A DNA stretch of 64,000 nucleotides. Source: Paenalcaligenes suwonensis. Lineage in GTDB: Bacteria; Pseudomonadota; Gammaproteobacteria; Burkholderiales; Burkholderiaceae_B. The position numbers were made by a program, and so were the translations under genes. How positions within the stretch are numbered: position 1 is the first letter of the stretch; the number at the start of each line of letters is the position of its first letter. The notes beneath the pieces were generated by a model. That model was not told the origin of the DNA and searched no databases. It saw only the letters and a program-made list of their open reading frames with translations. Location: assembly GCF_011290505.1 (NCBI RefSeq), contig NZ_JAANPV010000007.1, positions 62,001-126,000 on the forward strand, given 5' to 3'. Positions 37,990-55,358 of the stretch are shown piece by piece.

Positions 37990-38970
37990 TCATGCAGCAG
38001 CTCGTGCCTCGTACGTAATACCACCCTGCCTACGCAATAACATAAACACGACTACGGCTATCACCATCGCCAGCCCTGCCAACGCATACAGTACGTGCAC
38101 AAAAGACTGCGCATAGCTTTGCGCTAACTGGGACTCTAGCCCTGGTAGCAACGTCGTCGCCGCACGTAACTCGCCCAACGCTGCTAATCCAGCACCTTTC
38201 ATCACATCATCGGCGGCTAATAGCCCTAAATCTTGAAGTAGGTCTTGCTGTATTAACGTGGCCAACAACACACTGACTACGGCAATAGCAACACCATCCG
38301 CTGATACACGCACCGTATTAAAAATACCCGTTGCCATCCCTACTCTATCAGGGCTAACCACACTCACCGCCATCGCATCCATCAGACCCCATGGCAACCC
38401 TATCCCAACCCCTATTATCAACAACGGTAATTGCACCGCTTGACCACCACCCGTGACATAGAACACGCCTTGCCAGCTACTCATCTCTACTACCCAGCCA
38501 GCCACCCATGGCCCGAATGACAACCCCAACCCAAAGGTAGTGCCGAGCAAGCTAAAAGCCCTAGCACGCGCCGCCCCCTCGAACAGAGGAGCTAACGAGG
38601 TCATCGCTGCTGCAAAAGCGGCTGCGCCACCCAATCCCTGTAGCAACCGTAGGATATCGACCCACACAACAGAAGGCATGAAGGGGATCGCGAAGGTAAC
38701 CGCGCAAAACCACGCTAGTCCCAACAACCAAATACGTCGACGCCCATAAATATCGGTCAAACTGCCTGACACCATCACGGCACCGCCATAACTCAGGATA
38801 TACGCATTCATAATCCAACTAAGCTGTGTGGCAGTCCCTCCTAACTCGGCACTGATAGCAGGTAGCACTACCGCTGGACCAGTAAAGCACAACGGAATCA
38901 GCAGCCCTGTTAAACAAGCTGCAAGCAACTGAAGCCATCGCATAGCGGATGGCTGTGAAGAGTAATGCAT
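37990..38970 (-). pseudogene. DHA2-type MFS drug transporter with internal in-frame deletion
   Basis: 326 residues from ATG 38970, where this 14-helix family normally has 450-500. The N-terminal six helices are intact (VVLPAISAELGGTATQLSWIMNAYIL; GSLTDIYGRRRIWLLGLAWF; ILRLLQGLGGAAAFAAAMTSL). Right after SSWQGVFYVTG, which normally leads into helix 7, the chain jumps to QLPLLIIGVGIGLPWGLMDAMAVSVV, normally near helix 11. About four helices seem to be missing while the frame stays open, so transport activity is doubtful. It is divergent from the LysR gene. It could instead still make a short protein of altered function. Confidence 0.65.
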
Positions 38971-39103
38971 GGTTTCTCTACTGTAAAAATCATTGGTAGC
39001 CAGCACCTACTCCACAACGAGAAAATGCGTGACCACACAAACAAAGCAGTAGCTTAGGGCTTAAATTAGATAAGAAAAATATGCTAGAGTAATCAACACT
39101 TCG

Positions 39104-41284: not shown

Positions 41285-42037
41285 TTATACAGCGGCATCC
41301 ACCAACGCATGCACTAACTCATCTTTACGCACCTGCGGTGAGGGATAAGCATGCCTACTGTGAGTCAGTTTTAAGCTTAGCAACGTTTCCGCCAACTTAT
41401 AACTGAATGGCCCTGGGTTAATCAGTGGTACAGGCAAATGCTCGGCCAAATACTTTGCGGCTAAGTGCATGGTAGTAGAACCCAAACAAATTACCTCTGC
41501 ACCATCTTCTTCCACGCAACGCATTGCTGTTTCTAGCATACGTGGAAATACCGTATCTTCTTTGCCCTCAGTAAGATTGACAAAGTCAGGCTCAATATCA
41601 AAGGAACGTACAGAAGCACATTGGCGTTCTAAGCCATACTCTCTGATTACTTTCTTATAACGTGGCAAGGCGGGTTTCCATTGAGCCAATACGGAAAAAC
41701 TATTACCTAAGGTCAAGGCATACAACATAGACGCTTTACCTGGGCCTATGACAGGAATACTCAACACAGAGCGTAGCGCCGCCATACCCGAATCACTCAT
41801 GGTATCGATCACTACCGCATCAAAACCTTCTTTCTCTGCATCCACAGCGGCTTCATAAATACCTATATCCGCCAATAGCCAATCGTGATGCGACATAAAG
41901 GAGGTAGAACCTACACGTACAGGCCTATAGACCAATTCTGTACTAGGATCTAGCTCTACGTGCTGACCTTGTGCTGCACGACGCGCGACGCCTTCCTCAT
42001 CTAAAGGAAAGGGGTTAATTACCAATATTCTGGACAT
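41285..42037 (-). CDS. Asp/Glu/hydantoin racemase-fold protein lacking catalytic cysteines (copy 2)
   Basis: 250 residues, last gene of the catabolic operon. The fold is recognised from RILVINPFPLDEEG at the start, GFDAVVIDTMSDSGMAALRS near residue 75, PVIGPGKASML, and EEDGAEVICLGSTTMHLAA near 190. In hydantoin and glutamate racemases the two catalytic Cys lie in the segments corresponding to DTMSDSG and LGSTTM; here they are Thr and Ser. A racemase mechanism is therefore unlikely. The fold also includes maleate isomerase and decarboxylases, which use one or two Cys, so the activity is open. It is a paralogue of the gene just upstream. Confidence 0.8.
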   Translation of the reverse strand: MSRILVINPFPLDEEGVARRAAQGQHVELDPSTELVYRPVRVGSTSFMSHHDWLLADIGIYEAAVDAEKEGFDAVVIDTMSDSGMAALRSVLSIPVIGPGKASMLYALTLGNSFSVLAQWKPALPRYKKVIREYGLERQCASVRSFDIEPDFVNLTEGKEDTVFPRMLETAMRCVEEDGAEVICLGSTTMHLAAKYLAEHLPVPLINPGPFSYKLAETLLSLKLTHSRHAYPSPQVRKDELVHALVDAAV

Positions 42038-42051
42038 AATCTGCTCCTGCG

Positions 42052-42801
42052 TTATAGCGCTAGGCCCATGGCCTTATAGGTGTCTAAGCGCGGTGCCAGT
42101 GGTTCAGGGTATGTGGCACGACTGTGTGACAACCCTAGCTGCAGCGCATTCTGCGCTAAGCGATAGGACAAAGGCCCTGGGTTAATCACAGGCACTGGCA
42201 ACTGCTGAGCTAAGTAGGCGTGGGCCTCATGCATAGTCGTCGAGCCCAGCACAATTACGTCCGCACCATCCTCTTCTATACAGCGTAAGGCCACATCGCG
42301 TAGTACCGGAAACACTTCAGCTTCCCTACCGCCCAATAACACCTGATTGTTAGGCACTAGATTCGCGGCGCGCATGGATGCACATTTATGCGCCAAGCCT
42401 AACTCAGCCAGTATTTTGCGATACAGCGGATTCCATCTGTCCCACATAGAGAGGATAGAAAAGCTATCCCCTAACATTAGGGCTGTAAGCATGGCGTGGC
42501 GCCCTGCACCGATCACAGGAATTGTGAGTACCGAACGTAATACGGCCATACCAGCATCACTAACCGTATCAATGCACAGCGCATCATAGCCAGCTTCTTC
42601 GGCTGCCAACCCTGCTTCCATCATGCCTATATCAGCCAACAAAGCATCTTGCTGGCTCACATAGTTGGCAGGTGCAATACGTACTGCGTTGAATTCAAAC
42701 TGTATGCCCGGCCCCAAACTCACCGCTTGCAGCTGTTGCTCACGTTTACGCAAGTTTGTTTCATCCATCGGAAATGGCACTAATACCAGAACTTTATACA
42801 T
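42052..42801 (-). CDS. Asp/Glu/hydantoin racemase-fold protein lacking catalytic cysteines (copy 1)
   Basis: 249 residues from ATG 42801, preceded by GGAG at the right distance; an ATG four codons earlier overlaps that ribosome site. It is homologous to the following gene throughout (YDALCIDTVSDAGMAVLRSVL; ADVIVLGSTTMHEAHAYL; PVPVINPGPLSYRLAQ). As in that copy, both positions of the catalytic Cys pair are Thr and Ser. Being kept as two diverged copies suggests a hetero-oligomer or two related substrates. It lies 38 bp after the lyase gene. Confidence 0.8.
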   Translation of the reverse strand: MYKVLVLVPFPMDETNLRKREQQLQAVSLGPGIQFEFNAVRIAPANYVSQQDALLADIGMMEAGLAAEEAGYDALCIDTVSDAGMAVLRSVLTIPVIGAGRHAMLTALMLGDSFSILSMWDRWNPLYRKILAELGLAHKCASMRAANLVPNNQVLLGGREAEVFPVLRDVALRCIEEDGADVIVLGSTTMHEAHAYLAQQLPVPVINPGPLSYRLAQNALQLGLSHSRATYPEPLAPRLDTYKAMGLAL

Positions 42802-42839
42802 GGTTGTCTCCATTATTATGGTGCTGCTATCTGTATCTG

Positions 42840-43706
42840 TTATTGCGCATTTGCCTCGAAACGCTTACCGTGCTCCAACATTTCAGGCGTGCCTATCAAG
42901 GCATTCAAACCATTCAAGTCCAACATGCGGTCTTTAAAAGGCATGTTGCTTAAATTCAAGTGTAGTGAGTCATAATATTGATCGGCTGTTTTGGCGAGCG
43001 CCCTAGCAATGCCACCCGGGAAAATCACGATTTGAAAGCCCAGCTCACCCAGCTCAGGCGCCGTATACATAGGCGTTGAGCCGCCCTCTACCATGTTGGC
43101 TAACAAGGGCAACCTCGTACCAAAACGCTGGCAAATAGCTTGCAATTGTTCTTGATTCGCTGGCGCCTCTACAAATAACACATCGGCACCCGCTTCCACG
43201 TAGCGCTCTGCGCGGTCTAGTGCAGCCTCAAAACCCTCTACCGCGATGGCATCAGTGCGCGCAATAATAAGGGTCTGATCACTATGACGCGCATCGACAG
43301 CCGCTTTGATTTTCCCAACCATCTCGGCTGCACTGACTACCGCTTTCCCAGCCAAATGCCCGCAACGTTTGGGTAAACTTTGGTCTTCTAGCTGTAGTGC
43401 ATTCGCACCCGCCCTTTCATACATGCGTACTGTACGCTGCACATTCAACGCGTTACCGTGACCATTATCAGCATCTACAATTAAGGGGCTACTCACACGG
43501 TCGCGTATCAACTCTATGGTCGACACTACTTCGGTCATGGTGACTAAGCCTATGTCAGGCCTCCCCAACTTACTGTAGGCAATACCTGCACCAGACAGGT
43601 ACAAGGCTTTAAAGCCGTAGCGCTCAGCGATCAAAGCCGTCAACGCATCGTACACACCCGGCGCAATGATTTGCTCGCCACGTTGCAAAATCTGTTTTAG
43701 TGTCAT
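42840..43706 (-). CDS. Isocitrate lyase/PEP mutase superfamily lyase
   Basis: 288 residues, TIM-barrel. The active-site loop KRCGHLAGK near residue 112 carries the catalytic Cys of true lyases (KKCGH in isocitrate and methylisocitrate lyases). DADNGHGNALNVQRTV near 80 supplies metal ligands, and LIIARTDAIAVEG follows. Such enzymes cleave 2-hydroxy-dicarboxylates: 2-methylisocitrate to pyruvate and succinate, or 2,3-dimethylmalate to pyruvate and propionate. No 2-methylcitrate genes are adjacent. Its place beside a LeuCD-type hydro-lyase suggests cleavage of a substituted malate made by that enzyme. Confidence 0.87.
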   Translation of the reverse strand: MTLKQILQRGEQIIAPGVYDALTALIAERYGFKALYLSGAGIAYSKLGRPDIGLVTMTEVVSTIELIRDRVSSPLIVDADNGHGNALNVQRTVRMYERAGANALQLEDQSLPKRCGHLAGKAVVSAAEMVGKIKAAVDARHSDQTLIIARTDAIAVEGFEAALDRAERYVEAGADVLFVEAPANQEQLQAICQRFGTRLPLLANMVEGGSTPMYTAPELGELGFQIVIFPGGIARALAKTADQYYDSLHLNLSNMPFKDRMLDLNGLNALIGTPEMLEHGKRFEANAQ

Positions 43707-43727
43707 GATTCTTCCTTTTTTGTGGTC

Positions 43728-44426
43728 TTACAAACCAAGATAAGTACGTCTAAGCTCAGGGTCCATTGCTACGGACTCGGCATCACCCGACAATGCCACG
43801 CGCCCATTCTCGATAATGTAAGCACGATGCGCTAACTCTAATGACTGCACCACATTTTGCTCTACCAGCATGATGGTCAGCCCTTCCTGATTCAAGCGCT
43901 GTATAAGGGCAAACATTTCTTCCACCAATAAAGGGGAAAGCCCCAATGACGGCTCATCCAGTATGAGAAAATCTGGCTCGGCCATCATGCCCCTACCTAT
44001 GGCCAACATCTGCTGCTCACCACCTGATAACGTGCCTGCTTTCTGGTTAATACGTTCACGCAACCGAGGAAATAAGTCATAGATGCGCTCAAGATTGCGC
44101 TGCTTATTGGCTTGCCCACGCAAGTAAGCACCCAGCTCTAAGTTTTCATGTACCGCCAGATTAGGGAATATCTTTCTACCCTCAGGCACATGAATCAAAC
44201 CCGCTTTAACAATGTGCTCACTGTTTTTGGGTAATGCTGCACCTTTGAAATCAATGCTCCCTGCATTCACCTTCAACATTCCAGACAGCACCATGTTTAG
44301 TGTGGTTTTGCCTACGCCGTTTGCTCCCAAAACCGCCACTATTTCGCCGGCCTTTACGTGCAAATCGATTCCGCGCAGTACTTCCACGGCGCCATACCCC
44401 GCTTTGAGCGCTTTAATCTCAAGCAT
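43728..44426 (-). CDS. livF: Branched-chain-amino-acid-type ABC transporter ATPase (LivF)
   Basis: 232 residues from ATG 44426; the open frame to 44462 adds residues inside livG. Walker A is GANGVGKTT near residue 36, the signature is LSGGEQQML near 133, and Walker B is FLILDEPSLGL. It pairs with LivG to drive the importer. The start overlaps the livG stop by 8 bp. Confidence 0.93.
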   Translation of the reverse strand: MLEIKALKAGYGAVEVLRGIDLHVKAGEIVAVLGANGVGKTTLNMVLSGMLKVNAGSIDFKGAALPKNSEHIVKAGLIHVPEGRKIFPNLAVHENLELGAYLRGQANKQRNLERIYDLFPRLRERINQKAGTLSGGEQQMLAIGRGMMAEPDFLILDEPSLGLSPLLVEEMFALIQRLNQEGLTIMLVEQNVVQSLELAHRAYIIENGRVALSGDAESVAMDPELRRTYLGL

Positions 44427-45168
44427 GCTGTTGCTCCTGCTTCGCCAATCGGTTTGCAGCACCGTGGCCTAAATACGCCTCTATCACCAAGGGGTCACTC
44501 ACCACCGCACGTGGCTCACCTTGTGACACGATTTTCCCTTGTGCCAGTACATACAGGTAGTCACACAAACTCATCACTGCTTGCATGACATGCTCAATCA
44601 TCAAAACAGAGATACCCTCTGCCCTAATGCCTTCAATGACCGGAATGATGTCGCGAATTTCTGAAGGATTTAAACCCGCCAACACTTCATCTAGCAGCAA
44701 TAACTTAGGTTCTGTAGCCAGTGCCTTAGCCAACTCCAAGCGCTTACGACCCGCCACTGTTAACCCTGCTGCAGGACGATGCAGTGCATGCTCCAGCCCT
44801 ACTCTATGCGCCACATCACGTGCGACGGCTTCGGCTTCATCTCTATCTTTATGACGAAGAAAAGCGCCCACCACAATATTTTCTAAGGTGCTTAAACCAG
44901 CAAAAGGCTGCACGATCTGAAAAGTACGCCCCATTCCCATCTCGGCACGACGATGTGGCGGCATAGCAGTAATATCCACCCCGTCGTACATAACTCGACC
45001 GGTTGAGCACTTTAAAAATCCAGAAGCAACCGAAAACAGCGTTGTTTTACCCGCTCCATTAGGGCCAATTAAGCCAGTGATAGAGCCCTTCTTAACCTCT
45101 AGCGATGCATCATTAATAGCAACTAAACCGCCAAATCGCATCGTGATTGATTGTGCTTGCAAAATCAT
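44419..45168 (-). CDS. livG: Branched-chain-amino-acid-type ABC transporter ATPase (LivG)
   Basis: 249 residues. Walker A is GPNGAGKTTLFSVASG near residue 37. The signature is the variant LTVAGRKRLELAKAL near 139, and Walker B is LLLLDEVLAGLNPSE. The variant signature is known in a LivG subgroup linked to catabolic clusters rather than to amino-acid uptake, as I recall. Both ends overlap neighbours (ATGA with livM; 8 bp with livF). Confidence 0.93.
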   Translation of the reverse strand: MILQAQSITMRFGGLVAINDASLEVKKGSITGLIGPNGAGKTTLFSVASGFLKCSTGRVMYDGVDITAMPPHRRAEMGMGRTFQIVQPFAGLSTLENIVVGAFLRHKDRDEAEAVARDVAHRVGLEHALHRPAAGLTVAGRKRLELAKALATEPKLLLLDEVLAGLNPSEIRDIIPVIEGIRAEGISVLMIEHVMQAVMSLCDYLYVLAQGKIVSQGEPRAVVSDPLVIEAYLGHGAANRLAKQEQQHA

Positions 45169-46142
45169 GTGCGTTGCTCCTGTTCAGCTTTAGCAGAACG
45201 AATACGCCACTTACGCCCCAAGCCCAATAAGCCTTGCGGCAAAAAGCACACCGCCACAATCAATACGCCACCGTAAATCGCCATATCCACACCTGGGATT
45301 TCGCCGGTAAAGCTTTTGACACCCTCACCCAACAGATGCAATCCCAACACTCCTACTAATGGGCCAAACACCGTACCTAAGCCGCCAACCATACTGGCGA
45401 GCAGCACCTCTACCGATACCTTAGGCCCAAACGCCAAACTCGCATCTATATAGAGGAAATACTGCACATACAAACACCCAGCTGCCGCAGCTAAACCACC
45501 TGAAAGCGTGATCGCTTTTAATTTAACCTTCAGTACATTGATACCCAGAGCTTTTGCCGCATCTTCGTTCTCACGCACCGCTGCCAATTGCGCACCAAAG
45601 CGGGAGAATGAAATTTTGCGCACCACAATCAAACCTACACTTAACACCGCAACCGTTAACCAGTAAAAATACGTGCGATTAGAAAACTGCAAATGTTCAA
45701 AACCATAGTTAATCGGCAGCAATAGACCTGACGCACCACCCATTAACGGTGAAGCATTGGTGAGCACTCTAAACACCTCGGCAAACGCCAATGTCACCAG
45801 CGCAAAATAAGAACCTCGTAACCCAGCACGGAACGATAAGAAACCCACCAGCCAGCCTACTAAGGCACCCGCTGCGATCCCCACCAACAGACCACTCCAC
45901 GCCCCTAAGCCCAAATTCAATTGCCACAAACTAATGACATAAGCGCCTGTGCCAAAAAATGCCGCATGACCAAACGAAATTTGCCCTGCCATCCCACCCA
46001 GCACGTTCCAGCCCTGAGCAGCAATAGCAATAATCAGGGTGTAAATCATGAAGCTGATCACTACGTTTGAGGAGGAAAACCACGGTAGTGCGATCAACAA
46101 CACAATCACGGCGGCGATAGAGGAATACGCACTCAATTTCAT
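45165..46142 (-). CDS. livM: Branched-chain-amino-acid-type ABC transporter permease (LivM)
   Basis: 325 residues, about nine to ten helices. The family segment QISFGHAAFFGTGAY near residue 54 and the EAA-like loop RENEDAAKALGINVLKVKLKAI near 190 are present. The later segment SMVGGLGTVFGPLVG is also typical. It forms the membrane channel with LivH. The ATG overlaps the livH stop and its stop overlaps the livG ATG, so the importer genes are tightly coupled. Confidence 0.93.
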   Translation of the reverse strand: MKLSAYSSIAAVIVLLIALPWFSSSNVVISFMIYTLIIAIAAQGWNVLGGMAGQISFGHAAFFGTGAYVISLWQLNLGLGAWSGLLVGIAAGALVGWLVGFLSFRAGLRGSYFALVTLAFAEVFRVLTNASPLMGGASGLLLPINYGFEHLQFSNRTYFYWLTVAVLSVGLIVVRKISFSRFGAQLAAVRENEDAAKALGINVLKVKLKAITLSGGLAAAAGCLYVQYFLYIDASLAFGPKVSVEVLLASMVGGLGTVFGPLVGVLGLHLLGEGVKSFTGEIPGVDMAIYGGVLIVAVCFLPQGLLGLGRKWRIRSAKAEQEQRT

Positions 46143-47011
46143 GCTTTAGCTCCAAAAAAACCGGTGGGCTTAAACAGTAGAACCAGGATAAATGTGATGA
46201 AAATCCCAATCTGACCTAGGCTTTCACCTAAAAACAGGCCACATAAGCTTTCTACAATGCCAATAAAAATACCGCCTACCAGAGCCCCCACAATGGAGCC
46301 CATACCACCCAGTACCACCACCGTGAATGCGACTAATACAAAGGCACTACCAATGCTGGGGTACACATAAAACGTAGGGAGCAATAACGATGCCGACACT
46401 GCCAAACATGCGCACCCAATACCAAAGGTGACAGCATAAATATGCTTCACATTAATCCCAACCAAACTCGCGCCTAGCTTCTCTTTAGAAACAGCACGTA
46501 TGGCTTTGCCTGTATTGGTTTTTGCCAAGAACACCCACAACAAGGCAGCCGTCAGCACCGAGGCAAACAACCCAAACACACGAGCTTGCGAGAAAATAAA
46601 GGGGCCAAACTCAAATACATCAAAGGAGTAATCCGATGACAACGAACGCACATCTGATCTAAAAATCGCCAGCAACACGTTTTCAATCACGATGGATAAA
46701 CCCAAGGTGATAATCAGAATATTTTCATCCCTGCCATGACTGCCTGGGCCAATTAGAAAGCGCTGAATCACATAACCCACGATGAACAACGCGGGTACAA
46801 TGATAGGAAGCTGTATATACGGGTCTAAATTGAAATGCTGGTTCAACGATAGAACCAAGAACATGGATGCCGCTAACATGGCACCATGCGAAAAATTGAT
46901 GATGTGCAACACGCCATACACCAGCGTTAAGCCCAAGGCGATCAAAGCATAAATAGAGCCAGTCAGCACACCATTTAAAATTGCCTCGATTACGATACTC
47001 ATTGAGTACAT
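46139..47011 (-). CDS. livH: Branched-chain-amino-acid-type ABC transporter permease (LivH)
   Basis: 290 residues, about eight helices. LNGVLTGSIYALIALGLTLVYGVLHIINFSHG (residues 12-43) is the classic LivH start, and the cytoplasmic coupling loop is AIRAVSKEKLGASLVGIN near 170. VVLGGMGSIVGALVGG lies further on. The start at 47011 is favoured by a GAGAG ribosome site; a Met three codons later is possible. Confidence 0.92.
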   Translation of the reverse strand: MYSMSIVIEAILNGVLTGSIYALIALGLTLVYGVLHIINFSHGAMLAASMFLVLSLNQHFNLDPYIQLPIIVPALFIVGYVIQRFLIGPGSHGRDENILIITLGLSIVIENVLLAIFRSDVRSLSSDYSFDVFEFGPFIFSQARVFGLFASVLTAALLWVFLAKTNTGKAIRAVSKEKLGASLVGINVKHIYAVTFGIGCACLAVSASLLLPTFYVYPSIGSAFVLVAFTVVVLGGMGSIVGALVGGIFIGIVESLCGLFLGESLGQIGIFITFILVLLFKPTGFFGAKA

Positions 47012-47062
47012 AATTTTTATCTCTCATTGATGGGTATCCGTAGATACCCAGACCACTCTCAC

Positions 47063-48274
47063 TTACAACGGATAATTAGGTTTAGCATCCGCAAATTCCG
47101 ACGGATAAATCACCTTGATATCACCTTGCTGAACCTGCGTCACAACGGGTGCACCACCCATATTTTGGCCATCCACAAAGCGTGTTGGGCCATATGGCAT
47201 GATGTGACCATCAAACTGAGACGTCTGCAGTGCTTCAATCACCGCGATGCGATCCGCCTTGCCTGCACGCTCCAATGCGTCAGCCAGCAGCAAAACGTTG
47301 GAGTAATTCAGTGCAATGTTGTATGTCCACGTAGTGCCACTGTCTTCCACTTGCTTACGTAGCGCTTGAGCTTGCTCGTTACGTGGATCGCTCCAGTGGT
47401 TGCAGTCCATAATGTTCTCGGCTGCTTGTGGGAACTCTTTCACAAACCTGAAATTAGACGCAGCACCATTCAACACCGCATAAATCCCTTTGGCGCGTAC
47501 TCGCTGTTGCTGTAACGTACGCATCAACAATACGGTTTCACCGTAGTATGACGATGGGATAATCAGATCCGGGCGTAAGGATCGAATGCGCAATGCCACG
47601 TTAGACATGTCTCTGGCGGGTGTTGGGTGCGCGATCACATCTAAGATTTCAAAACCGTGTTTAGGCAACTCTGTTTGCATCAACTTAGCCAAACCTGAGC
47701 CAAACAAACCGTCTTCGTGCACCAACACCACCGTTTTGGCGGGGTTGCCAGCATACTCGTTCATGTTGACTAAGCTATCTATTGCTGACTGCGAACAAAT
47801 GCCAAAGCCCGGTGCAAACCTAAAGGTGTTTTTTAAGCCCCGTTGTACGATTTGGTCTGACACCCCCACATCCACCAAATAAGGAATGTCGTAGCGTGAA
47901 GCTGCTTGTGTAGCTGCCAAGCAAATGGGGCTAGCAAAACCACCCACGATGGCCACTACACCTTGATTATGCAGTTGCTCTACCTCTTGTACCGCAACCT
48001 CGGGGTTAGAGCGCGCATCGGCAAATACCATTTCCAATGGCGCACCACCCAACGCCTTAATACCACCCTGCGCATTAATGTGTGCGATGGCGAGCTCTGC
48101 GCCTAAGCGGCCCAAACCACCATCTTGCGCAAATGTGCCTGTGACGGGCTGTAGAATACCTACCTTAATGGGCTGTACAGACTGCGCTCTAGACAAACCT
48201 GGAACGCCTAACATCACGGCGCTGGCCATACCATACTTCAACACTTGTCTGCGTTTTTGATCAAATGTATTCAT
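47063..48274 (-). CDS. ABC transporter substrate-binding protein (LivK-type) with Tat-like signal
   Basis: 403 residues from ATG 48274, with AGGAG at the right distance; the open frame to 48334 is discounted. The signal sequence has a twin-arginine pattern, KRRQVLKYGMASAVMLG, with cleavage likely after SRAQ, suggesting export in folded form. The mature part is a type I periplasmic binding protein (IKVGILQPVTGTFAQDGGLGRLGAELAIAHINAQGG; ADARSNPEVAVQEV). It delivers the operon's substrate to LivHMGF. The ligand is unknown; such proteins also bind amides and aromatic acids. Confidence 0.9.
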   Translation of the reverse strand: MNTFDQKRRQVLKYGMASAVMLGVPGLSRAQSVQPIKVGILQPVTGTFAQDGGLGRLGAELAIAHINAQGGIKALGGAPLEMVFADARSNPEVAVQEVEQLHNQGVVAIVGGFASPICLAATQAASRYDIPYLVDVGVSDQIVQRGLKNTFRFAPGFGICSQSAIDSLVNMNEYAGNPAKTVVLVHEDGLFGSGLAKLMQTELPKHGFEILDVIAHPTPARDMSNVALRIRSLRPDLIIPSSYYGETVLLMRTLQQQRVRAKGIYAVLNGAASNFRFVKEFPQAAENIMDCNHWSDPRNEQAQALRKQVEDSGTTWTYNIALNYSNVLLLADALERAGKADRIAVIEALQTSQFDGHIMPYGPTRFVDGQNMGGAPVVTQVQQGDIKVIYPSEFADAKPNYPL

Positions 48275-48320
48275 TGTCTTATCTCCTGATTGGGTGCTCG
48301 GTAGCGCACACCCAGCTTTT

Positions 48321-49730
48321 TTAATTGTCGTCACGTTGTTGTAGCTGGCTGCAGGCGCTTAAACCTGCCAATCGCCCTAACACCACGGCTGTCAACAAAC
48401 CATTACCCGATAAATAACCATCGGCTCCCGGCCCACAAAACCCACGTGCAGCGCCACCTCCAGCATAAAGATTAGGCAAGACCTCACCATTTGGCTTCAA
48501 TACACGGGCATGACTATCCACCGTCAGCCCACCCTGGGTATGAAACAGTGCACCACTTACTTTGGCTGCTCTATAGGGTGCTTGCAGCGCCTGCTCTGGC
48601 GTAAAGCTTCTACCCAGAGGATCGTGTTGCTTGCCTTGGGTATAGCTATGCACCTGCTCTAATTGCTCACGTAGTGCCTCTAACGGCAGACCAGTAACCG
48701 CCGCCAGTTCTTCTATGCTGTCTGCGTGACGTATACCACCCAAAGCCTGCACTTCTTTGTAATCATGAAAAGCTAAGGCAGGCTGTTCGCAGCGGGCATC
48801 ATAAATGCTCCATGCGTATTGTCCGGGCTGTTTCAGGACTTCTTCGGCATGCTCAGAGTAACCACGCATTTCGTTGGCGAAACGTTTACCCAGTTGATTA
48901 ACCTGAATGCCCCCTAGTGACACCACCGCCCATGTCAATGGCGACCCATGCGGCACCGACACCGAACCATGCCCTTGATAGGAGCCTAAATCTTCCGCGT
49001 GCGCACCCAACGCCAGCCCCCAGTCCAACGCATCACCTGTGTTAGATGTATGGCCGCAGTACTCGGCATCAACCATCTCGGGAATAAAGTGCGCTATTTT
49101 TTCTGGATTGCCGCCAAAACCGTTACACGCCAAAATCAGAGCTTCGCACCCTACTGTCTCTACCAATCCATCCGGACGTTTAAATGAAACCGCTACGACT
49201 TCGCCTAGCTCGGTGGCGTATAAATCCTCCACTGAAGCACTGGTCATAATGTCTACCTGTGCCTGTGAGGCCGCAGCCAGCAACATACTTTCTAAATCCG
49301 CCCCCGATTGAGAACGCGGCCCGTGCATGCGGTACTGTGAATGGCCGGGATAGCGAAATCCCTCTACCAAGTGCAAATCCAGCTTGTGTTCACGCATTAA
49401 CCAATCAATAGTCTTCCCCGAAGCAGTTGCTACGGCGTTAACGACTACTGCATCATTTCTGTAATGCGCTTTAGCCATTAAGTCTGCTGCAAACTGCTCC
49501 GCCGTATCCGCTATGCCCTTTTCTTTTTGCAGTTGCGTACCTGCTGCCGGAATCAACCCCGCTGATAACGACGTGCTACCACTAGGGTGCTCATCGCGCT
49601 CCAGCACCAGCACCTCTACACCCTGTTCGGCCACGGACAATGCCGCTGTCAGCCCACAGGCTCCAGCACCCACAATGACTACGGGCACACTAAACTCAAA
49701 CTCTGCCTCTATGGCTGGCTTTATCGCCAT
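48321..49730 (-). CDS. FAD-dependent oxidoreductase of the fumarate reductase/ketosteroid dehydrogenase type
   Basis: 469 residues from ATG 49730, seven bases after GGGGAG; a Met at 49751 lies before that site. The FAD motif is VVIVGAGACGLTAALSVAEQG near residue 18, with SGSTSLSAGLIPAAG. The substrate-domain arginine region is FRYPGHSQYRMHGPRSQSGAD, and NLYAGGGAARGFCGPGADGYLSGNGLL closes the FAD site. No signal or heme-binding domain is seen, so it acts in the cytoplasm. In context it may desaturate or reduce a succinate-like acid of the pathway. Confidence 0.85.
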   Translation of the reverse strand: MAIKPAIEAEFEFSVPVVIVGAGACGLTAALSVAEQGVEVLVLERDEHPSGSTSLSAGLIPAAGTQLQKEKGIADTAEQFAADLMAKAHYRNDAVVVNAVATASGKTIDWLMREHKLDLHLVEGFRYPGHSQYRMHGPRSQSGADLESMLLAAASQAQVDIMTSASVEDLYATELGEVVAVSFKRPDGLVETVGCEALILACNGFGGNPEKIAHFIPEMVDAEYCGHTSNTGDALDWGLALGAHAEDLGSYQGHGSVSVPHGSPLTWAVVSLGGIQVNQLGKRFANEMRGYSEHAEEVLKQPGQYAWSIYDARCEQPALAFHDYKEVQALGGIRHADSIEELAAVTGLPLEALREQLEQVHSYTQGKQHDPLGRSFTPEQALQAPYRAAKVSGALFHTQGGLTVDSHARVLKPNGEVLPNLYAGGGAARGFCGPGADGYLSGNGLLTAVVLGRLAGLSACSQLQQRDDN

Positions 49731-49789
49731 ATTCTGTCTCCCCAAACCCATTCACCACCTTGACCAGCCAGTAGCTGGGCACGCCTGTA

Positions 49790-50401
49790 CTACAGCTTTG
49801 CCCAAGGGTAGCGTTGGTAATAGTTGTCTTCGAAATTGCTAATACTGTCTTGGTGGCTTAAGGTAAGCTCCAACTCATCCATACCCTGAAGCAAACAGGT
49901 TCGCCAAAATGCATCCACATGAAAGGGGTAATTGGTACCGTCGGGTAACCTCACCTGTTGATTTTCCAGATCCACTACCACGCTGCGGTATTGCTGGGTA
50001 CGCAATGCCTCACCGATTAGGGAAACAACGTGCTCAGGTAAACACACCGGCAAAATCCCGTTTTTCAGGCAGTTATTATGGAAAATGTCCCCAAAACTGG
50101 GGGCGATCACAGCGCGTATACCGTAGTCGGCTAAAGCATAAACGGCGGCCTCTCGCGAGGAGCCACAACCAAAGTTTTCACCAGTGACTAAAATTGTGGC
50201 GTCACGATACGCGGGCTGGTTTAGCACAAACTCTGCAATCTCATCGCCCAGCTCGGTGAAACGCAGGTCATGAAATAGCACGGCGCCATACCCCAGTGCG
50301 CGATCTCGTTTCAGAAAGCGCCCCGGCACAATTTGGTCTGTATCCACATTGCGTTGTTCAAAGGGTACCGCTACGCCTTCTACACATATAAAAGCTTTCA
50401 T
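49790..50401 (-). CDS. LeuD-type hydro-lyase small subunit
   Basis: 203 residues. It is the swivelling domain of aconitase-superfamily enzymes: NVDTDQIVPGRFLKR near residue 18, GENFGCGSSREAAVYALADYGIRAVIAPSFGDIFHNNC near 74. It overlaps the upstream large-subunit gene by 4 bp (ATGA). It is most like isopropylmalate isomerase small subunits, but no leuB or leuA is near and the operon is catabolic. A hydratase for a maleate, citraconate or dimethylmaleate-like acid is a better fit. Confidence 0.87.
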   Translation of the reverse strand: MKAFICVEGVAVPFEQRNVDTDQIVPGRFLKRDRALGYGAVLFHDLRFTELGDEIAEFVLNQPAYRDATILVTGENFGCGSSREAAVYALADYGIRAVIAPSFGDIFHNNCLKNGILPVCLPEHVVSLIGEALRTQQYRSVVVDLENQQVRLPDGTNYPFHVDAFWRTCLLQGMDELELTLSHQDSISNFEDNYYQRYPWAKL

Positions 50402-51831
50402 GCCTGCACCTCGGTTGAAAGGTGGCGCACATCGGTCAACTTACCGTATAGCGCTGCTGCAGCCGCCATCGCGGGGCTTAACAAGTGCGTACGAGCCCCT
50501 TTACCTTGGCGACCCACAAAATTACGATTAGACGTAGAGGCACAGCGCTTACCTGCCGGTACCACATCACCATTCATGGCTGCACAACTAGAACAACCTG
50601 GCTCCAACCACTGCGCTCCTGCCTCTTGAAACACACGCCCCAAGCCCTCTGCTTCTGCTGCTTTTTTCACTAAGCCAGAACCTGGAACCACAATGGTAGG
50701 CACGCGTACCTTTTTGCCACGTAATACGTTTGCTGCTTCGCGTAAGTCTTCCAAACGGCTATTGGTACAGGAGCCTATAAACACCATGTCTATCGCTATC
50801 GCCTCCAACGCCATGCCGGGTTGTAAATCCATGTACTGCAACGCAGCTTCTACGGCTTGTTGACGCGATACATCGTCAAAGGACAATGGGTCCGGCACCT
50901 GCGCTGCAATTGAACTGACATCTTCAGGGCTGGTCCCCCAACTCACCATCGGCGTGATGGCATTGCCGTCTATGAGTACTTCTTGATCAAAAACCGCCTC
51001 GGCATCACTGGCTAGATTGCGCCAATCCTCTACAGCTTGCTCCCACAATGCACCAGCAGGTGCGTATGCTCGGCCTTTTACATAAGCAAAGGTAGTGTCA
51101 TCTGGCGCCACCATACCGCACCGCGCCCCCGCCTCTATAGACATGTTGCAGACAGTCAGACGCTCCTCAATACTCATGTCGCGTATGACAGACCCTGCAT
51201 ATTCAATGGCATAACCTGTGGCACCGGATGCCCCTATACGGGCAATGATGGCTAACACCACATCTTTGGCTGACACCCCTTGAGCACGTACCCCGTCTAC
51301 CGTAATACGCATGACTTTAGGACGCGATTGCCACAGAGTCTGCGTTGCCATCACATGCGCGTTTTCAGACTGACCTATACCAAAAGCAATGGCTCCCAAT
51401 GCCCCGTTGGTAGAGGTATGGCTATCACTACACACTACCAAAAGCCCAGGCAACGTAATTCCCTGCTCGGGCGCCACCACATGCACAATGCCTTGCCGTG
51501 GATCTTGCAACGAGAAATGGTTCACACCGCTCCACTGCATGTTGCGATCAAACTGCTGAATCATGTGCGTGAGCTCTATGGTTGCCGCGCCTTCTGCCGT
51601 GCGCGAACGTGTAGGCACATAATGGTCTGGCACCCCAAATACTTGTTTGGGCTTACGAACAGTTAAACCACGACGCTGTAGATCAGCAAAAGCATGGAAA
51701 GAGCCTTCATGAATAAGGTCCCTGTCCACGTATAGCAAATCCGGCCCATCCGGTTGGGACAAGATCACGTGCCTGTCCCAAATCTTGTCAAACATAGTGC
51801 GCGCCACAACGGCCTTCTTGTTGCTGGACAT
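50398..51831 (-). CDS. LeuC-type hydro-lyase large subunit
   Basis: 477 residues from ATG 51831, which overlaps the previous stop (TAATG); the open frame to 51900 adds non-family residues. The [4Fe-4S] ligands are visible: Cys in FIGSCTNSRLEDLREA near residue 350, and the pair in PGCSSCAAMNGD near 415. VCSDSHTSTNGALGAIAFGIGQSE near 130 is the aconitase signature. It forms the hydro-lyase with the small subunit. Relatives in anaerobic nicotinate breakdown act on 2,3-dimethylmalate, a useful precedent given the lyase in the same operon. Confidence 0.88.
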   Translation of the reverse strand: MSSNKKAVVARTMFDKIWDRHVILSQPDGPDLLYVDRDLIHEGSFHAFADLQRRGLTVRKPKQVFGVPDHYVPTRSRTAEGAATIELTHMIQQFDRNMQWSGVNHFSLQDPRQGIVHVVAPEQGITLPGLLVVCSDSHTSTNGALGAIAFGIGQSENAHVMATQTLWQSRPKVMRITVDGVRAQGVSAKDVVLAIIARIGASGATGYAIEYAGSVIRDMSIEERLTVCNMSIEAGARCGMVAPDDTTFAYVKGRAYAPAGALWEQAVEDWRNLASDAEAVFDQEVLIDGNAITPMVSWGTSPEDVSSIAAQVPDPLSFDDVSRQQAVEAALQYMDLQPGMALEAIAIDMVFIGSCTNSRLEDLREAANVLRGKKVRVPTIVVPGSGLVKKAAEAEGLGRVFQEAGAQWLEPGCSSCAAMNGDVVPAGKRCASTSNRNFVGRQGKGARTHLLSPAMAAAAALYGKLTDVRHLSTEVQA

Positions 51832-52772
51832 TACCGCTCTCCAGCCTTCGCGACTGAAGCGCAATACGCATCTAAAATGTCTGTTCCCGTCGCCGCCCAC
51901 ACACCGCTGTGTCCCAACATGTACTCCAACGCCTCTCGTACTTTAGCGATACGAAATGGCACGCCAGACACCCACGCATGCAGCGGTACACTCATCACGC
52001 GTCCGCCGTACTGCTGTGACTCGCGATACAACACATCAAAACGATCTTTGATTTGTGTGAGCCACTCATCTTCGTTTTGATGAAACTCTTGGAAAATAAC
52101 TCGGTCGTCTGTTTCAAATGCCAAAGGCATGGCGTAGTGCTCGCCACTGGTTACCTTCATGGCATAAGGCAAATCATCGTTTGCCCAGTCGCAGGAATAA
52201 CGCACGCCTTGCGCTGCTAACAAGTCCATCGTATTGGCAGACTGACTACGTGCAGGCGACAGCCAACCCGTAACAGCTTGACCACTCATACGGCGCAACA
52301 GCTCTACGCTAGAAGCTATAAGCTGTGCTTCGTCTTGCTCACTCAGTTCAGCATGATGCACATGCCCCATGTCTTTACCATGCGCCATGAGTTCCACATC
52401 CTGTTTGAGCAAGCTTTGTACTAAGGCAGGATATCGCTCCGCCACTGCCGCATTCAGCGCCACAGATGCCGGTATACCCAATTCCTTTAGCACTCGCATA
52501 ATGCGGAATATGCCAACTCTGTTGCCATAGTCACGGCTAGAGTAATGGCGAAAATCGGGATAAGGCATGGTCAAACCACCCGGTGCACGGAATGGTTTAG
52601 CGGGTGCATTTAACGGAAACCATTGCAATATAGGCGTCACCCATAGCGCTACTCGTGCCTGATTAGGCCATTGCACTGGAGCTCGCTCAAACAGATCAGA
52701 CCACTCGTACCGGTCGTGATCCATGCCGTAGTGCCTATGGGGATAGCTCAAATACGTAGCATCAATCGTCAT
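51831..52772 (-). CDS. Polysaccharide-deacetylase-fold hydrolase, PuuE-like (copy 2)
   Basis: 313 residues from ATG 52772, which overlaps the previous stop (ATGA). It shares with the gene before it the frame WPNQARVALWVTPILQWFPLN, YSSRDYGNRVGIFRIMRVL, TGWLSPARSQSANTMDLLAAQGVRYSCDWANDD and SVPLHAWVSGVPFR. The layout matches PuuE allantoinase and related hydrolases that open cyclic amides, rather than sugar deacetylases. The region equal to the catalytic Asp pair (TFDDG in deacetylases) reads SVALNAAV, while HGKDMGHVHH near 145 may bind metal. The substrate is unknown. Confidence 0.8.
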   Translation of the reverse strand: MTIDATYLSYPHRHYGMDHDRYEWSDLFERAPVQWPNQARVALWVTPILQWFPLNAPAKPFRAPGGLTMPYPDFRHYSSRDYGNRVGIFRIMRVLKELGIPASVALNAAVAERYPALVQSLLKQDVELMAHGKDMGHVHHAELSEQDEAQLIASSVELLRRMSGQAVTGWLSPARSQSANTMDLLAAQGVRYSCDWANDDLPYAMKVTSGEHYAMPLAFETDDRVIFQEFHQNEDEWLTQIKDRFDVLYRESQQYGGRVMSVPLHAWVSGVPFRIAKVREALEYMLGHSGVWAATGTDILDAYCASVAKAGER

Positions 52773-53707
52773 TTTGTCACCTCTGCAGCCTGTTTGATGC
52801 CCGCAATCTGGGCCGATACGTCGTCGTAATAATGCGCTAAGTAATGATGGGCTATCTCGCGCCCTGTGGTTTGCCACACACCTTCATGCCCAGCGATGTA
52901 GGCGAGCGCTTCAGCAAAAGCATCGATACGATGTGGCTGCCCTACAAGATAAGGGTGTAAGGGAATACACATCACCGTGCCGGACTCGGCACCCTCTGCA
53001 TACAACTGATCGAACTGGCGCTTAATCATTTCCCCATAGTGACGCGGTGTGAACTGATTGCCGTTATAGACAATCACATCATTCATTTCTAACGAATACG
53101 GCATGCTAATCATGCGTCCATTCGCGACATTCACCGGTGTAGGCTGATCGTCGTGAAATAAATCGCAGGTATAGAGCACCCCTTCCTCGGCCAGTACATC
53201 TAGACTCCAAGGGTTATTCGACAAAGCAGGTGATAGCCACCCATCCAACGATTGCCCTGTCCACTTGTGAATGGTCTGCCGTGAATCGCGGATAATTGCA
53301 CGCTCTTGCTCTTTATCCATGCCATACACATAGCGCGTGTTATAGATACCATGCGAGAAAAACTCCCATCCACGATCGGCACACGCTTTAATAATTTCTG
53401 GATGGTGGTCACACAAGGCCACATTTAACGACACCGAACCTTTAAAGTTGGTTTCATCCATAGCACGCATCATGCGCTGCCATCCGGCACGATTCCCGTA
53501 ATCCCTGTGTGAGTAGCCTTGCACATCAGGATGTGGGCGTGGCCACGCCGCTCTGGAGGCATTCGCCGCAGGGTTTAATTCATAGAATTCAATATTGGGG
53601 GCAATCCATACGGCAATACGCGATTCGTCAGGCCACACGAGTTTAGGGCGTTGGTCATAAGGCAAATAATCGTAGAGCTGAAGGTCACTGACTTGTGTAT
53701 GGCTCAT
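52769..53707 (-). CDS. Polysaccharide-deacetylase-fold hydrolase, PuuE-like (copy 1)
   Basis: 312 residues. It is a paralogue of the next gene: WPDESRIAVWIAPNIEFYELNP, YSHRDYGNRAGWQRMMRAMD near residue 74, GWLSPALSNNPWSLDVLAEEGVLYTCDLFHDDQP and MCIPLHPYLVGQPHR near 260. The last segment matches the GLHxRLxGRPxR stretch of PuuE allantoinase. The metal-site region differs from copy 2 (FFSHGIYNTRYVYG instead of HGKDMGHVHH), so the two may differ in substrate, or only one may be active. It lies 3 bp after the isochorismatase gene. Confidence 0.8.
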   Translation of the reverse strand: MSHTQVSDLQLYDYLPYDQRPKLVWPDESRIAVWIAPNIEFYELNPAANASRAAWPRPHPDVQGYSHRDYGNRAGWQRMMRAMDETNFKGSVSLNVALCDHHPEIIKACADRGWEFFSHGIYNTRYVYGMDKEQERAIIRDSRQTIHKWTGQSLDGWLSPALSNNPWSLDVLAEEGVLYTCDLFHDDQPTPVNVANGRMISMPYSLEMNDVIVYNGNQFTPRHYGEMIKRQFDQLYAEGAESGTVMCIPLHPYLVGQPHRIDAFAEALAYIAGHEGVWQTTGREIAHHYLAHYYDDVSAQIAGIKQAAEVTK

Positions 53708-53710
53708 GCC

Positions 53711-54379
53711 TTACCCCTTCATGCTCTGTACGTGAGCCAGTACCTCTGCGGTAGGCACAACGTCACCGTACTTAATTGCAATGTCGTACAGATTGGCAAA
53801 GTGAGGGCTTTCATGTTTATCAGCCACGCACTCCTCGGCCACAATCATGCGATACCCGTTGGATATGCCATCCACCACTGTTGCTCGCACACAGCCTGAT
53901 GTAGACCCGCCCGTCAAGATGACGCTATCGCAACCGTGCCACGTCATCAATGAACGCAAATTGGTCTCAAAAAATGCTGACGCCATACGTTTGTTGATAA
54001 TGATGTCTTTCACATGATCAATCTTCAATCTGTCGTCAAATTCAGCACGTCTTGACCCCACTTTGATGTTCTGTAATGAGTCTGGCGTATCACTACGGGT
54101 ACCCCATACACCACAATCTTCACCCGATTCCATGTACGCAACATAAGTCCAGACTACAGGTAAGCCTGCGGCACGAAACGCATCCGCCAAACCATTTACA
54201 TGCTCCATCTGCTTTGGGTCGGTTTCGTAAGCCGTCGCAAACTCCCCCACGTTGGTGTACGACTTCTGCAAATCGATGTTCACCAAAATAGGTTTTTTGC
54301 CAAAACCAAAACGTGGACGAACAGGTTTAGCTTTGATTTGTTCGTATAGTTCGCGCGCTGTTTTCCCAGATGCTTCCAT
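53711..54379 (-). CDS. Isochorismatase-fold amidohydrolase (N-carbamoylsarcosine amidase-like)
   Basis: 222 residues, first gene of the operon. The triad of cysteine hydrolases is visible: Asp in PILVNIDLQKSYTN near residue 36, Lys in DIIINKRMASAFFETNL near 130, and Cys in LTGGSTSGCVRATVVDGISNGY near 160. The family includes N-carbamoylsarcosine amidase and maleamate amidase (NicF), which release ammonia from half-amides. Next to the PuuE-like genes, hydrolysis of the opened ring product is the natural guess. Confidence 0.87.
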   Translation of the reverse strand: MEASGKTARELYEQIKAKPVRPRFGFGKKPILVNIDLQKSYTNVGEFATAYETDPKQMEHVNGLADAFRAAGLPVVWTYVAYMESGEDCGVWGTRSDTPDSLQNIKVGSRRAEFDDRLKIDHVKDIIINKRMASAFFETNLRSLMTWHGCDSVILTGGSTSGCVRATVVDGISNGYRMIVAEECVADKHESPHFANLYDIAIKYGDVVPTAEVLAHVQSMKG

Positions 54380-54405: not shown

Positions 54406-54429
54406 GTATTAATGTTATATTAATAATAC
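54406..54429. promoter_or_regulatory. Possible operator for the GntR regulator
   Basis: An inverted repeat GTATTA-N12-TAATAC, with two internal ATTAAT half-sites, lies 27 bp upstream of the first operon gene in the 148-bp space shared with the divergent GntR gene. GntR proteins often bind AT-rich sites with GT and AC ends like these. The match is only by eye. Confidence 0.45.
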
Positions 54430-54527: not shown

Positions 54528-55358
54528 ATGACTTCCAACACATCGCTTCTTAACAAGACGCCCGAAGGCCTCTTAAACACACTGGATGACAAGTCACCGC
54601 TACCGCTTTACCACCGCTTGTATGTCTTGCTGCGTGAGCAAATTATTAGCGGCAGTTACCGTAACGGTGAAAGTTTGCCGCCTGAAAATGATTTAGTACA
54701 AAATTTTGGTGTCAGCCGCATCACAGTACGACGCGCCTTAAACGACTTAGCTGCAGAAGGCTTAATTACCCGTGCTCGTGGGCGCGGTACACAAGTAACC
54801 TATAGCGAAAATACAGCTATTATGGGGCGTCCAGTCATTGCCAGCATTGATGGCTTAATGGCGAATCTCTCTATTATTGGCCACAACACCTCAGTAGAGG
54901 TAAAAACGCTGGATTACACACCCGCCATCGCCCCAATTGCCGAACAATTAAATGTAGAGCCTGGCACCATCATTCAACACGTCACACGTGTGCGCTACTT
55001 AAAAAATGAGCCATTCTCACATTCGCAAAGTTACTTATTAGAAGATATAGGCCGCTCATTTACACGTGACGACTTGATCAATCATGCGCTGGTAGACCTC
55101 ATTCAAAAAGCTGGTATTACGATAGAACATGTTCAACAGGCCATCACCTGCACGCTAGCAGATGAACAAGCTGCCCGCTTGCTGAAAACATCTATAGGTG
55201 CACCGCTACTGAAGTTGCGCCGACTCTTCATAGACTCTGATGAACGCCCTATCAACTACTCTGAAATTCTCTACACACCAGACCGCTTTGAGTACCGTAT
55301 GAACTGGTCCAGAGGCACCAGCAATAACTTGGAACTTGCCCAAGATTTTCAGCGCTAA
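54528..55358 (+). CDS. GntR/HutC-family transcriptional regulator
   Basis: 276 residues. A winged helix-turn-helix (residues about 25-92; LYVLLREQIISGSYRNGESLPPENDLVQNFGVSRITVRRALNDLAAEGLI in outline) is followed by a UTRA ligand domain (about 112-255; IQHVTRVRYLKNEPFSHSQSYL). It is divergent from the catabolic operon and is the obvious candidate for its substrate-responsive repressor. HutC-type regulators bind small organic acids or amino-acid derivatives. A strong terminator follows. Confidence 0.92.
   Translation: MTSNTSLLNKTPEGLLNTLDDKSPLPLYHRLYVLLREQIISGSYRNGESLPPENDLVQNFGVSRITVRRALNDLAAEGLITRARGRGTQVTYSENTAIMGRPVIASIDGLMANLSIIGHNTSVEVKTLDYTPAIAPIAEQLNVEPGTIIQHVTRVRYLKNEPFSHSQSYLLEDIGRSFTRDDLINHALVDLIQKAGITIEHVQQAITCTLADEQAARLLKTSIGAPLLKLRRLFIDSDERPINYSEILYTPDRFEYRMNWSRGTSNNLELAQDFQR

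Follow-up and report, generated by a model that had tools for sequence, protein, structure and literature searches.

We analysed a 64,000-nucleotide stretch of the Paenalcaligenes suwonensis genome (contig NZ_JAANPV010000007.1, positions 62,001 to 126,000), called the window below, which carries a putative operon for the breakdown of a small cyclic imide. The list of open reading frames (ORFs) of the window places 14 ORFs between positions 41285 and 54379, all on the minus strand and all close or overlapping (Table 1), with intergenic gaps of 3, -109, -70, -4, 38, -14, 51, -4, -4, -44, 21, 26 and 14 nucleotides. The two largest overlaps are a product of choosing the longest ORF, and they would be smaller if PuuE2 and LeuC started at internal ATG codons. 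Pfam and NCBIfam assign the products to Isochorismatase, Polysacc_deac_1/PuuE-like (two proteins), Aconitase/LeuC, Aconitase_C/LeuD, FAD_binding_2 of the flavocytochrome c type, Peripla_BP_6, BPD_transp_2 (two), ABC_tran (two), PEP_mutase/ICL (PrpB-like) and Asp_Glu_race (two). For all 14 products these names agree with those in an earlier note made from the sequence alone, whose description of 14 tightly packed genes is thereby borne out, but which left out a divergent GntR/UTRA regulator gene lying 148 bases from the first gene. Promoter-like and terminator-like patterns at the operon were no more frequent than in shuffled sequence. The 14 genes and the divergent regulator look like one regulated unit.

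Table 1. Coordinates of the operon genes, the regulator gene and the operator-like site in the window.
Feature	Position	Strand	Basis
Racemase-fold protein 2; catalytic Cys pair replaced by T79, S187	41285..42037	-	PF01177
Racemase-fold protein 1; catalytic Cys pair replaced by T83, S191	42052..42813	-	
Methylisocitrate-lyase-type C-C lyase	42840..43706	-	PF13714; TIGR02317 below cut-off
LivF ATPase	43728..44462	-	PF00005
LivG ATPase	44419..45168	-	PF00005 + PF12399
LivM permease	45165..46142	-	PF02653
LivH permease	46139..47011	-	PF02653
LivK-type periplasmic binding protein (ORF limits)	47063..48334	-	PF13458
FAD_binding_2 flavoprotein; putative optional dehydrogenase	48321..49751	-	TIGR01813 below cut-off
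LeuD-type hydro-lyase small subunit	49790..50401	-	TIGR00171
LeuC-type hydro-lyase large subunit	50398..51900	-	TIGR00170
PuuE-like cyclic amidohydrolase 2 (PuuE2; ORF limits, translation probably starting at ATG codon 36); paralogue or partner subunit	51831..52877	-	
PuuE-like cyclic amidohydrolase 1 (PuuE1); putative imide ring opener	52769..53707	-	
Isochorismatase-fold amidase; putative half-amide (maleamate-like) hydrolase	53711..54379	-	PF00857
Operator-like palindrome TAATGTTATATTAATA, between regulator and first gene	54410..54425	+	Similar sites in relatives' intergenic regions
GntR/UTRA (HutC-type) regulator, divergent from operon	54528..55358	+	Pfam GntR + UTRA

Active sites of the encoded enzymes

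Both PuuE-like proteins have the PuuE/NodB fold of cyclic amidohydrolases together with its conserved histidine and aspartate motif residues. They share 35% identity; in PuuE2, D230 and D234 are kept in 36/36 sequences and H166 and H300 in 32/36. A predicted model of PuuE1 matches the structure of PuuE allantoinase in Foldseek, whose comparisons here and below are confined to the top 1000 chains. The amidase scores over the PF00857 cut-off, its Asp-Lys-Cys triad (D36, K130, C163) is conserved in 26 sequences, the window's included, and its relatives in the PDB are 4l07, N-carbamoylsarcosine amidohydrolase and NicF (3uao). NicF is named as maleamate amidohydrolase (PMC5806882), and 4l07 is probably a maleamate amidase as well.

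LeuC reaches 633 bits with TIGR00170 (cut-off 560) and LeuD 217 bits with TIGR00171 (cut-off 116), both within the isopropylmalate isomerase models, although their role need not be leucine synthesis because the genome holds another LeuC-like match (54%) at a different place. Hydratases of the LeuC family act on cis-maleate-type acids. The lyase carries the K-x-C-G-H active-site loop of the isocitrate lyase (ICL)/PEP-mutase superfamily as KRCGH, and with 291 bits it falls under the cut-off of 354.4 of the 2-methylisocitrate lyase (PrpB) model TIGR02317. Its residues K113, C115 and F178 occur in 53/53 homologues and H117 in 52/53, the window included. Solved methylisocitrate lyases likewise have Phe at the position matching F178, whereas the isocitrate lyase encoded by the window's own genome (L004, the one own-genome lyase used here) has Trp there. 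For this reason pyruvate is a likelier product than glyoxylate, and of the two products offered in the earlier note we retain the former.

The flavin adenine dinucleotide (FAD) enzyme scores 261 bits with the fumarate reductase/flavocytochrome c model TIGR01813 (cut-off 285) and 157.3 bits with the tricarballylate dehydrogenase model for TcuA, NF006130 (cut-off 369), and thus falls below both thresholds; the TcuA search gave no member above the cut-off for comparison. The arginines of fumarate reductases have catalytic and carboxylate-binding roles. Where aligned fumarate reductases have Glu, Arg and Arg, the FAD enzyme has W274, Y298 and Y446, which are conserved in 84-85 of 86 homologues, and succinate/fumarate chemistry, considered for this enzyme, is weakened by these residues.

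The two racemase-fold proteins are 52% identical and show the fold of Asp/Glu/hydantoin racemases, but both lack the two catalytic cysteines. Thr and Ser stand at the two positions in the window pair and likewise in 18 selected rows of the alignment. In the wider sets a few distant rows differ, with Cys in none; for racemase-fold protein 2, T79 is found in 12/13 and S187 in 11/13. Structure comparison places the fold closest to allantoin racemase and also lists the maleate isomerase Iso of P. putida S16, an identity that we dropped for the pair because both cysteines are missing. Classical two-cysteine racemisation or isomerisation is contradicted by the sequences of both proteins. The conservation of two cysteine-less proteins of this fold suggests that a well-studied superfamily includes an activity yet to be characterised.

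Conservation, exchange of ring openers and regulation

A scan anchored on the FAD gene gave at least 558 confirmed stretches, the best 80 of which were mapped with 10-kb flanks by tblastn, using the window genes together with HyuA, HyuB, PrpD, tautomerase and TRAP references. Identity limits were 50% for PuuE1, 35% for PuuE2, 50% for HyuA or HyuB, 45% for the A-type amidase, 35% for the lyase, 30% for LeuC and 25% for PrpD; counts are based on tblastn, simple gene callers being unreliable in high-GC loci, and the B-type amidase was counted from an ORF cluster. Among the 80 loci we find the lyase in 49, LeuC in 40, the PuuE pair in 35, GntR in 27, Liv in 21, HyuAB in 17, tautomerase in 17, PrpD-like genes in 16, TRAP in 16 and racemase-fold genes in 12. 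The 52 loci with a ring opener mostly also hold an amidase (50), a hydratase of the LeuCD or PrpD-like type (45) and a lyase (43). All 14 genes are present in 9/80 loci (L010 and L018 represent one region), in a further locus on a plasmid (L009) and in the same-genus genome G138 (96-100% identity), and carriers include Microvirga, Paracoccus, Neorhizobium and Tianweitania. The search of other genomes that the earlier note had proposed thus finds relatives to be widespread and the gene set not to be unique to the window.

Because these loci had been picked by the FAD gene, PuuE1 was chosen as a second anchor. At E 1e-80 it is present in 12/151 genomes of the family and 5/369 of the class, with the window's genome counted in both. 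The 15 other PuuE1-anchored genomes, among which the contig-split operons of G125 and G032 were joined by hand, hold PuuE2 in 15, the amidase in 14, LeuCD in 12, the lyase in 12 and the FAD gene in nine. By these counts the most constant part is the amidase with PuuE1 and PuuE2, usually accompanied by LeuCD and the lyase, and it is the FAD enzyme, the racemase-fold pair and the type of transporter that vary among relatives. In G035 and G080, both listed as 100% complete and keeping the rest of the core, a search at E 1e-20 gave no FAD homologue. Judged by these two genomes, the FAD enzyme is dispensable.

Some loci hold further genes. In the FAD-less G080, the lyase gene is succeeded by a pair of neighbouring Amidohydro_2 genes and by two TctC receptor genes (L124 3441-7283, minus strand), which may replace optional steps. 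An ETF-ubiquinone oxidoreductase gene lies between the lyase and PuuE2 in L165 (6564-8243, minus strand), a hint that in this variant a flavoprotein dehydrogenase may feed into the quinone pool. A second, different use of the FAD family is seen in L026 (5637-13541), where the neighbours of FAD-LeuC-LeuD are genes for a TctC receptor, a zinc alcohol dehydrogenase and a member of the isocitrate/isopropylmalate-dehydrogenase family; this cluster fits the dehydrogenation of a free acid.

The PuuE pair and HyuAB never occur together in the 80 loci at the identity limits used, and the amidase changes with the ring opener. An A-type amidase accompanies 34/35 PuuE loci and 0/17 HyuAB loci, and a B-type cysteine hydrolase is found in 16/17 HyuAB loci and one PuuE locus. 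Apparently, either of two unrelated ring openers can be combined with a common back end, an alternation which suggests that they are analogous enzymes in the same metabolic slot. In a quick tree of 64 FAD proteins, in which the very long branch of L132 is an artefact, the ring-opener label changes at least four times, with two changes forced by starred branches. It changes four times, two of them forced, in a quick tree of 54 lyases, where the L165 branch is very long and 15/51 inner branches are open; a single clade of HyuAB lyases is rejected (p-AU 0.039, with long branches present). Gene identities are also discordant. The window lyase and Liv proteins are closer to the HyuAB-type clusters L011, L012 and L083 (lyase 65-66%, Liv 58-71%) than to the Rhizobium-type PuuE clusters L009 and L019 (lyase 47%, Liv 43-62%), although the nearest overall are those of the family members G024 and G059 (lyase 73%, Liv 69-82%), while the ring-opener and racemase-fold genes match the Rhizobium-type PuuE clusters instead. 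Judging from the label changes and these identities, the operon is a mosaic of modules.

In another variant, L131 (952-12367), consecutive genes encode a Liv transporter, an SDR, a PuuE-like protein (44%), a protein with an AtuA domain, a distant B-type amidase and a racemase-fold protein. Near a LeuCD-PuuE cluster, L162 (4267-5820, minus strand) carries genes for an MvaI/BcnI-type restriction enzyme and a DNA methylase, perhaps a mobile neighbourhood.

A GntR homologue stands beside the cluster in nine of the 15 PuuE1-anchored relatives and is directly divergent from the amidase gene in six of those; the directly divergent homologues (L122-L127) are 47-64% identical to the window regulator. 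The intergenic regions of six relatives share the palindrome-like site found in the window. Its pattern has one exact match in the window's genome, which is the site in Table 1, and one match with a single mismatch on another contig, compared with one match for the backwards control. With a slightly stricter pattern and at most one mismatch, six of eight relatives have exactly one site per genome and two have none (control 0), and all six sites fall in the gap beside the operon's amidase gene. As for the two lacking one, the contig of G138 ends at the first gene, and the site of G076 is more diverged. The GntR/UTRA regulator presumably binds the palindrome.

A proposed imide pathway and its alternatives

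We propose, with a probability of about one half, that the operon is devoted to the catabolism of a small cyclic imide; the likeliest candidate is a 3-methyl-4-substituted maleimide or its succinimide counterpart. After uptake by the Liv-type transporter, PuuE1 and PuuE2 would open the imide to the half-amide, and the isochorismatase-fold amidase would convert the half-amide to a cis-dicarboxylate (a substituted maleate) and ammonia. LeuCD could then add water to give a 2-hydroxy-2-methyl-3-substituted succinate, which the methylisocitrate-lyase-type enzyme would cleave to pyruvate and a carboxylic acid. In operons that have it, the FAD enzyme might dehydrogenate the saturated (succinyl) analogue and so feed it in; adjusting an isomer may be the task of the cysteine-less racemase-fold pair or, in other genomes, of a protein of the tautomerase family, and the GntR/UTRA regulator would control the unit from its palindromic site. 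We infer each reaction, substrate and direction, as well as the pairing of regulator and site. A LeuC-type hydratase suits the pathway because imide hydrolysis yields a cis-maleate-type acid, and the type of lyase suggests a methyl group on one ring carbon. An unsaturated, maleimide-type ring is the simplest reading because the core without the FAD enzyme already spans ring opener to lyase. From the pathway outlined in the earlier note we keep import, ring opening, deamidation, hydration and carbon-carbon cleavage, in line with the families, the conserved set and the swappable ring-opener and amidase modules. Desaturation becomes optional in view of the two FAD-less cores, so that a saturated ring need not be assumed, and isomerisation and glyoxylate are revised as described above.

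Several observations weigh against this proposal. The PuuE-like proteins score 130.9 and 130.1 bits with the PuuE allantoinase model TIGR03212, whose cut-off is 424.6 bits. The amidase scores nearly equally with 4l07 (114.7 bits) and with N-carbamoylsarcosine amidohydrolase (111.0 bits), which would also suit a ureide half-reaction. The active-site residues of the FAD enzyme are unlike dicarboxylate-binding ones and fit poorly with a succinate-type substrate. The FAD gene lies without either ring opener in reach in 28/80 loci, 15 of them with no tabulated partner (some on short contigs), and the lyase is absent from the fetched stretch in 3/15 PuuE1-anchored relatives. Moreover, the either-or pattern of ring openers depends on the limits chosen, as weaker PuuE-like matches (26-36%) occur near HyuAB in L043, L054, L065, L071, L083, L087 and L088. 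Finally, the racemase-fold gene is rare (4/399 genomes from the order at E 1e-50, the window's own included) and would have no firm step in the pathway.

The chemistry proposed here resembles parts of known systems, and the analogies drawn earlier to imidase with half-amidase and to dimethylmaleate hydratase and lyase stand. In the nicotinate fermentation of Eubacterium barkeri, dimethylmaleate hydratase (DmdAB) and dimethylmalate lyase (Dml) likewise carry out an aconitase-family hydration and an ICL-superfamily cleavage to pyruvate and a short acid; this anaerobic route has another upstream part and, unlike the window operon, neither imidase nor half-amidase. The Nic/Ami maleamate branch of nicotinate and nicotine degradation has an isochorismatase-fold maleamate amidohydrolase in NicF and a maleate isomerase that shares the fold of the window racemase-fold pair. 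There, however, maleamate comes from 2,5-dihydroxypyridine via NicX and NicD, rather than from imide hydrolysis as proposed here, and the isomerase uses Cys, which the window pair lacks. In the creatinine/N-methylhydantoin pathway, HyuAB works with N-carbamoylsarcosine amidase, much as hydantoinase/oxoprolinase genes go together with one for an isochorismatase-type cysteine hydrolase in the HyuAB-type variant of the cluster, but the window operon has a carbon-carbon back end and an FAD enzyme in addition. PuuE allantoinase shares fold and motif positions with the window's two PuuE-like proteins, which are adjacent paralogues and score far below its model. The bacterial imidase and Aspergillus HxnM/HxnN likewise combine PuuE-related imide opening with a following amidase that releases ammonia; according to PMC9304392, HxnM is a PuuE-fold opener of cyclic imides, 64% identical to AAY98498, a P. 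putida imide hydrolase homologue, and is followed by an amidase. That route ends in alpha-hydroxyglutarate, whereas the window operon adds the LeuCD hydratase, the methylisocitrate-type lyase, the Liv transporter and the GntR regulator.

Alternatively, the substrate could be a saturated alkylsuccinimide for which the FAD dehydrogenase is essential, the order of steps favoured in the earlier note. The FAD gene is present in the window and nine of the 15 PuuE1-anchored relatives, and the arrangement of the FAD-LeuC-LeuD genes of L026 with their TctC receptor and isocitrate/isopropylmalate-dehydrogenase-family gene would suit the import of an alkylsuccinate followed by its dehydrogenation and then its hydration. 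However, G035 and G080 keep the core without an FAD homologue and the fumarate-reductase arginines are replaced in the FAD enzyme, and we regard this route as unlikely.

A hydantoin or ureide route is also conceivable, in which ring opening by the PuuE-like proteins or HyuAB would turn a 5-substituted hydantoin into an N-carbamoyl amino acid, removal of the carbamoyl group would fall to the isochorismatase-fold enzyme, and the racemase-fold proteins would act on the hydantoin carbon. PuuE itself is an allantoinase, the amidase score with N-carbamoylsarcosine amidohydrolase and the likeness of the racemase fold to allantoin racemase agree with this, and HyuAB with an isochorismatase-fold N-carbamoylsarcosine amidase makes up the creatinine route. 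Yet no transaminase or amino-acid deaminase family is represented among the 14 genes, the catalytic cysteine pair is missing from both racemase-fold proteins, and LeuCD and the methylisocitrate-lyase-type enzyme need a 2-hydroxy-dicarboxylate that such a route does not supply. Since LeuCD and the lyase would have no role, we place this improbable reading behind the imide pathway. Promiscuous nitrogen scavenging from succinimide, glutarimide or xenobiotic imides, with the carbon part incidental, is quite improbable as well: imidases and the following amidase do act on simple imides (HxnM/HxnN, PMC9304392), but the hydratase (45/52) and lyase (43/52) are kept with the front end, and such a back end is needless for succinate or glutarate. 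That the genes are chance neighbours or two unrelated transcripts, as the mosaic identities of the LivKHMGF and lyase genes might suggest, is highly improbable and already contradicted by conservation, the genes recurring side by side in members of the Alpha-, Beta- and Gammaproteobacteria. Their tight spacing and the operator-like site, with its single exact genomic match, also speak against it.

If the imide pathway is correct, its natural substrates may be the methyl-substituted maleimides formed by oxidation of chlorophyll, haem or bilins, namely methyl-, methylethyl- and methylvinylmaleimide and hematinic acid. Each has one ring methyl and all but methylmaleimide a second substituent, and they therefore fit a scheme in which the maleimide would pass through half-amide, substituted maleate and 2-methyl-malate to pyruvate and R-CH2-COOH, hematinic acid giving pyruvate and glutarate. 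PMC7318184 lists these four compounds as chlorophyll and haem oxidation products, reports hematinic acid in its samples with maleimides not detected, and refers to previous reports of maleimides and hematinic acid from senescent leaves and from lake sediments. No identified gene in the clusters points directly to tetrapyrroles, and we keep this assignment as a doubtful one for that reason. Open-access titles and abstract openings on hematinic acid or methylvinylmaleimide and bacteria describe no bacterial pathway for these imides. If true, the assignment would make the operon a bacterial pathway dedicated to the final stage of tetrapyrrole breakdown and a sink for oxidised chlorophyll and haem fragments.

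Whatever the substrate, the operon looks like a conserved, self-contained pathway, whose FAD gene has relatives in at least 558 confirmed stretches, and since related gene sets are present in many soil and marine bacteria, finding its natural substrate would fill a real gap. The parts are of known kinds; the combination of genes, the swap of ring openers and the cysteine-less racemase-fold pair are undescribed in the literature that could be searched. Among the open-access papers listed, none describes a pathway joining these genes, in keeping with the earlier note; neither a known substrate for the set nor a split into unrelated transcripts, either of which would have overturned that note, has come to light.

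Outside the operon, the window encodes at 37990-39006 an MFS_1 protein of 338 amino acids, adjoining a LysR gene. Its best-matching stretch covers only positions 2-159 of the 347-position profile, and the protein may be internally shortened or decayed.

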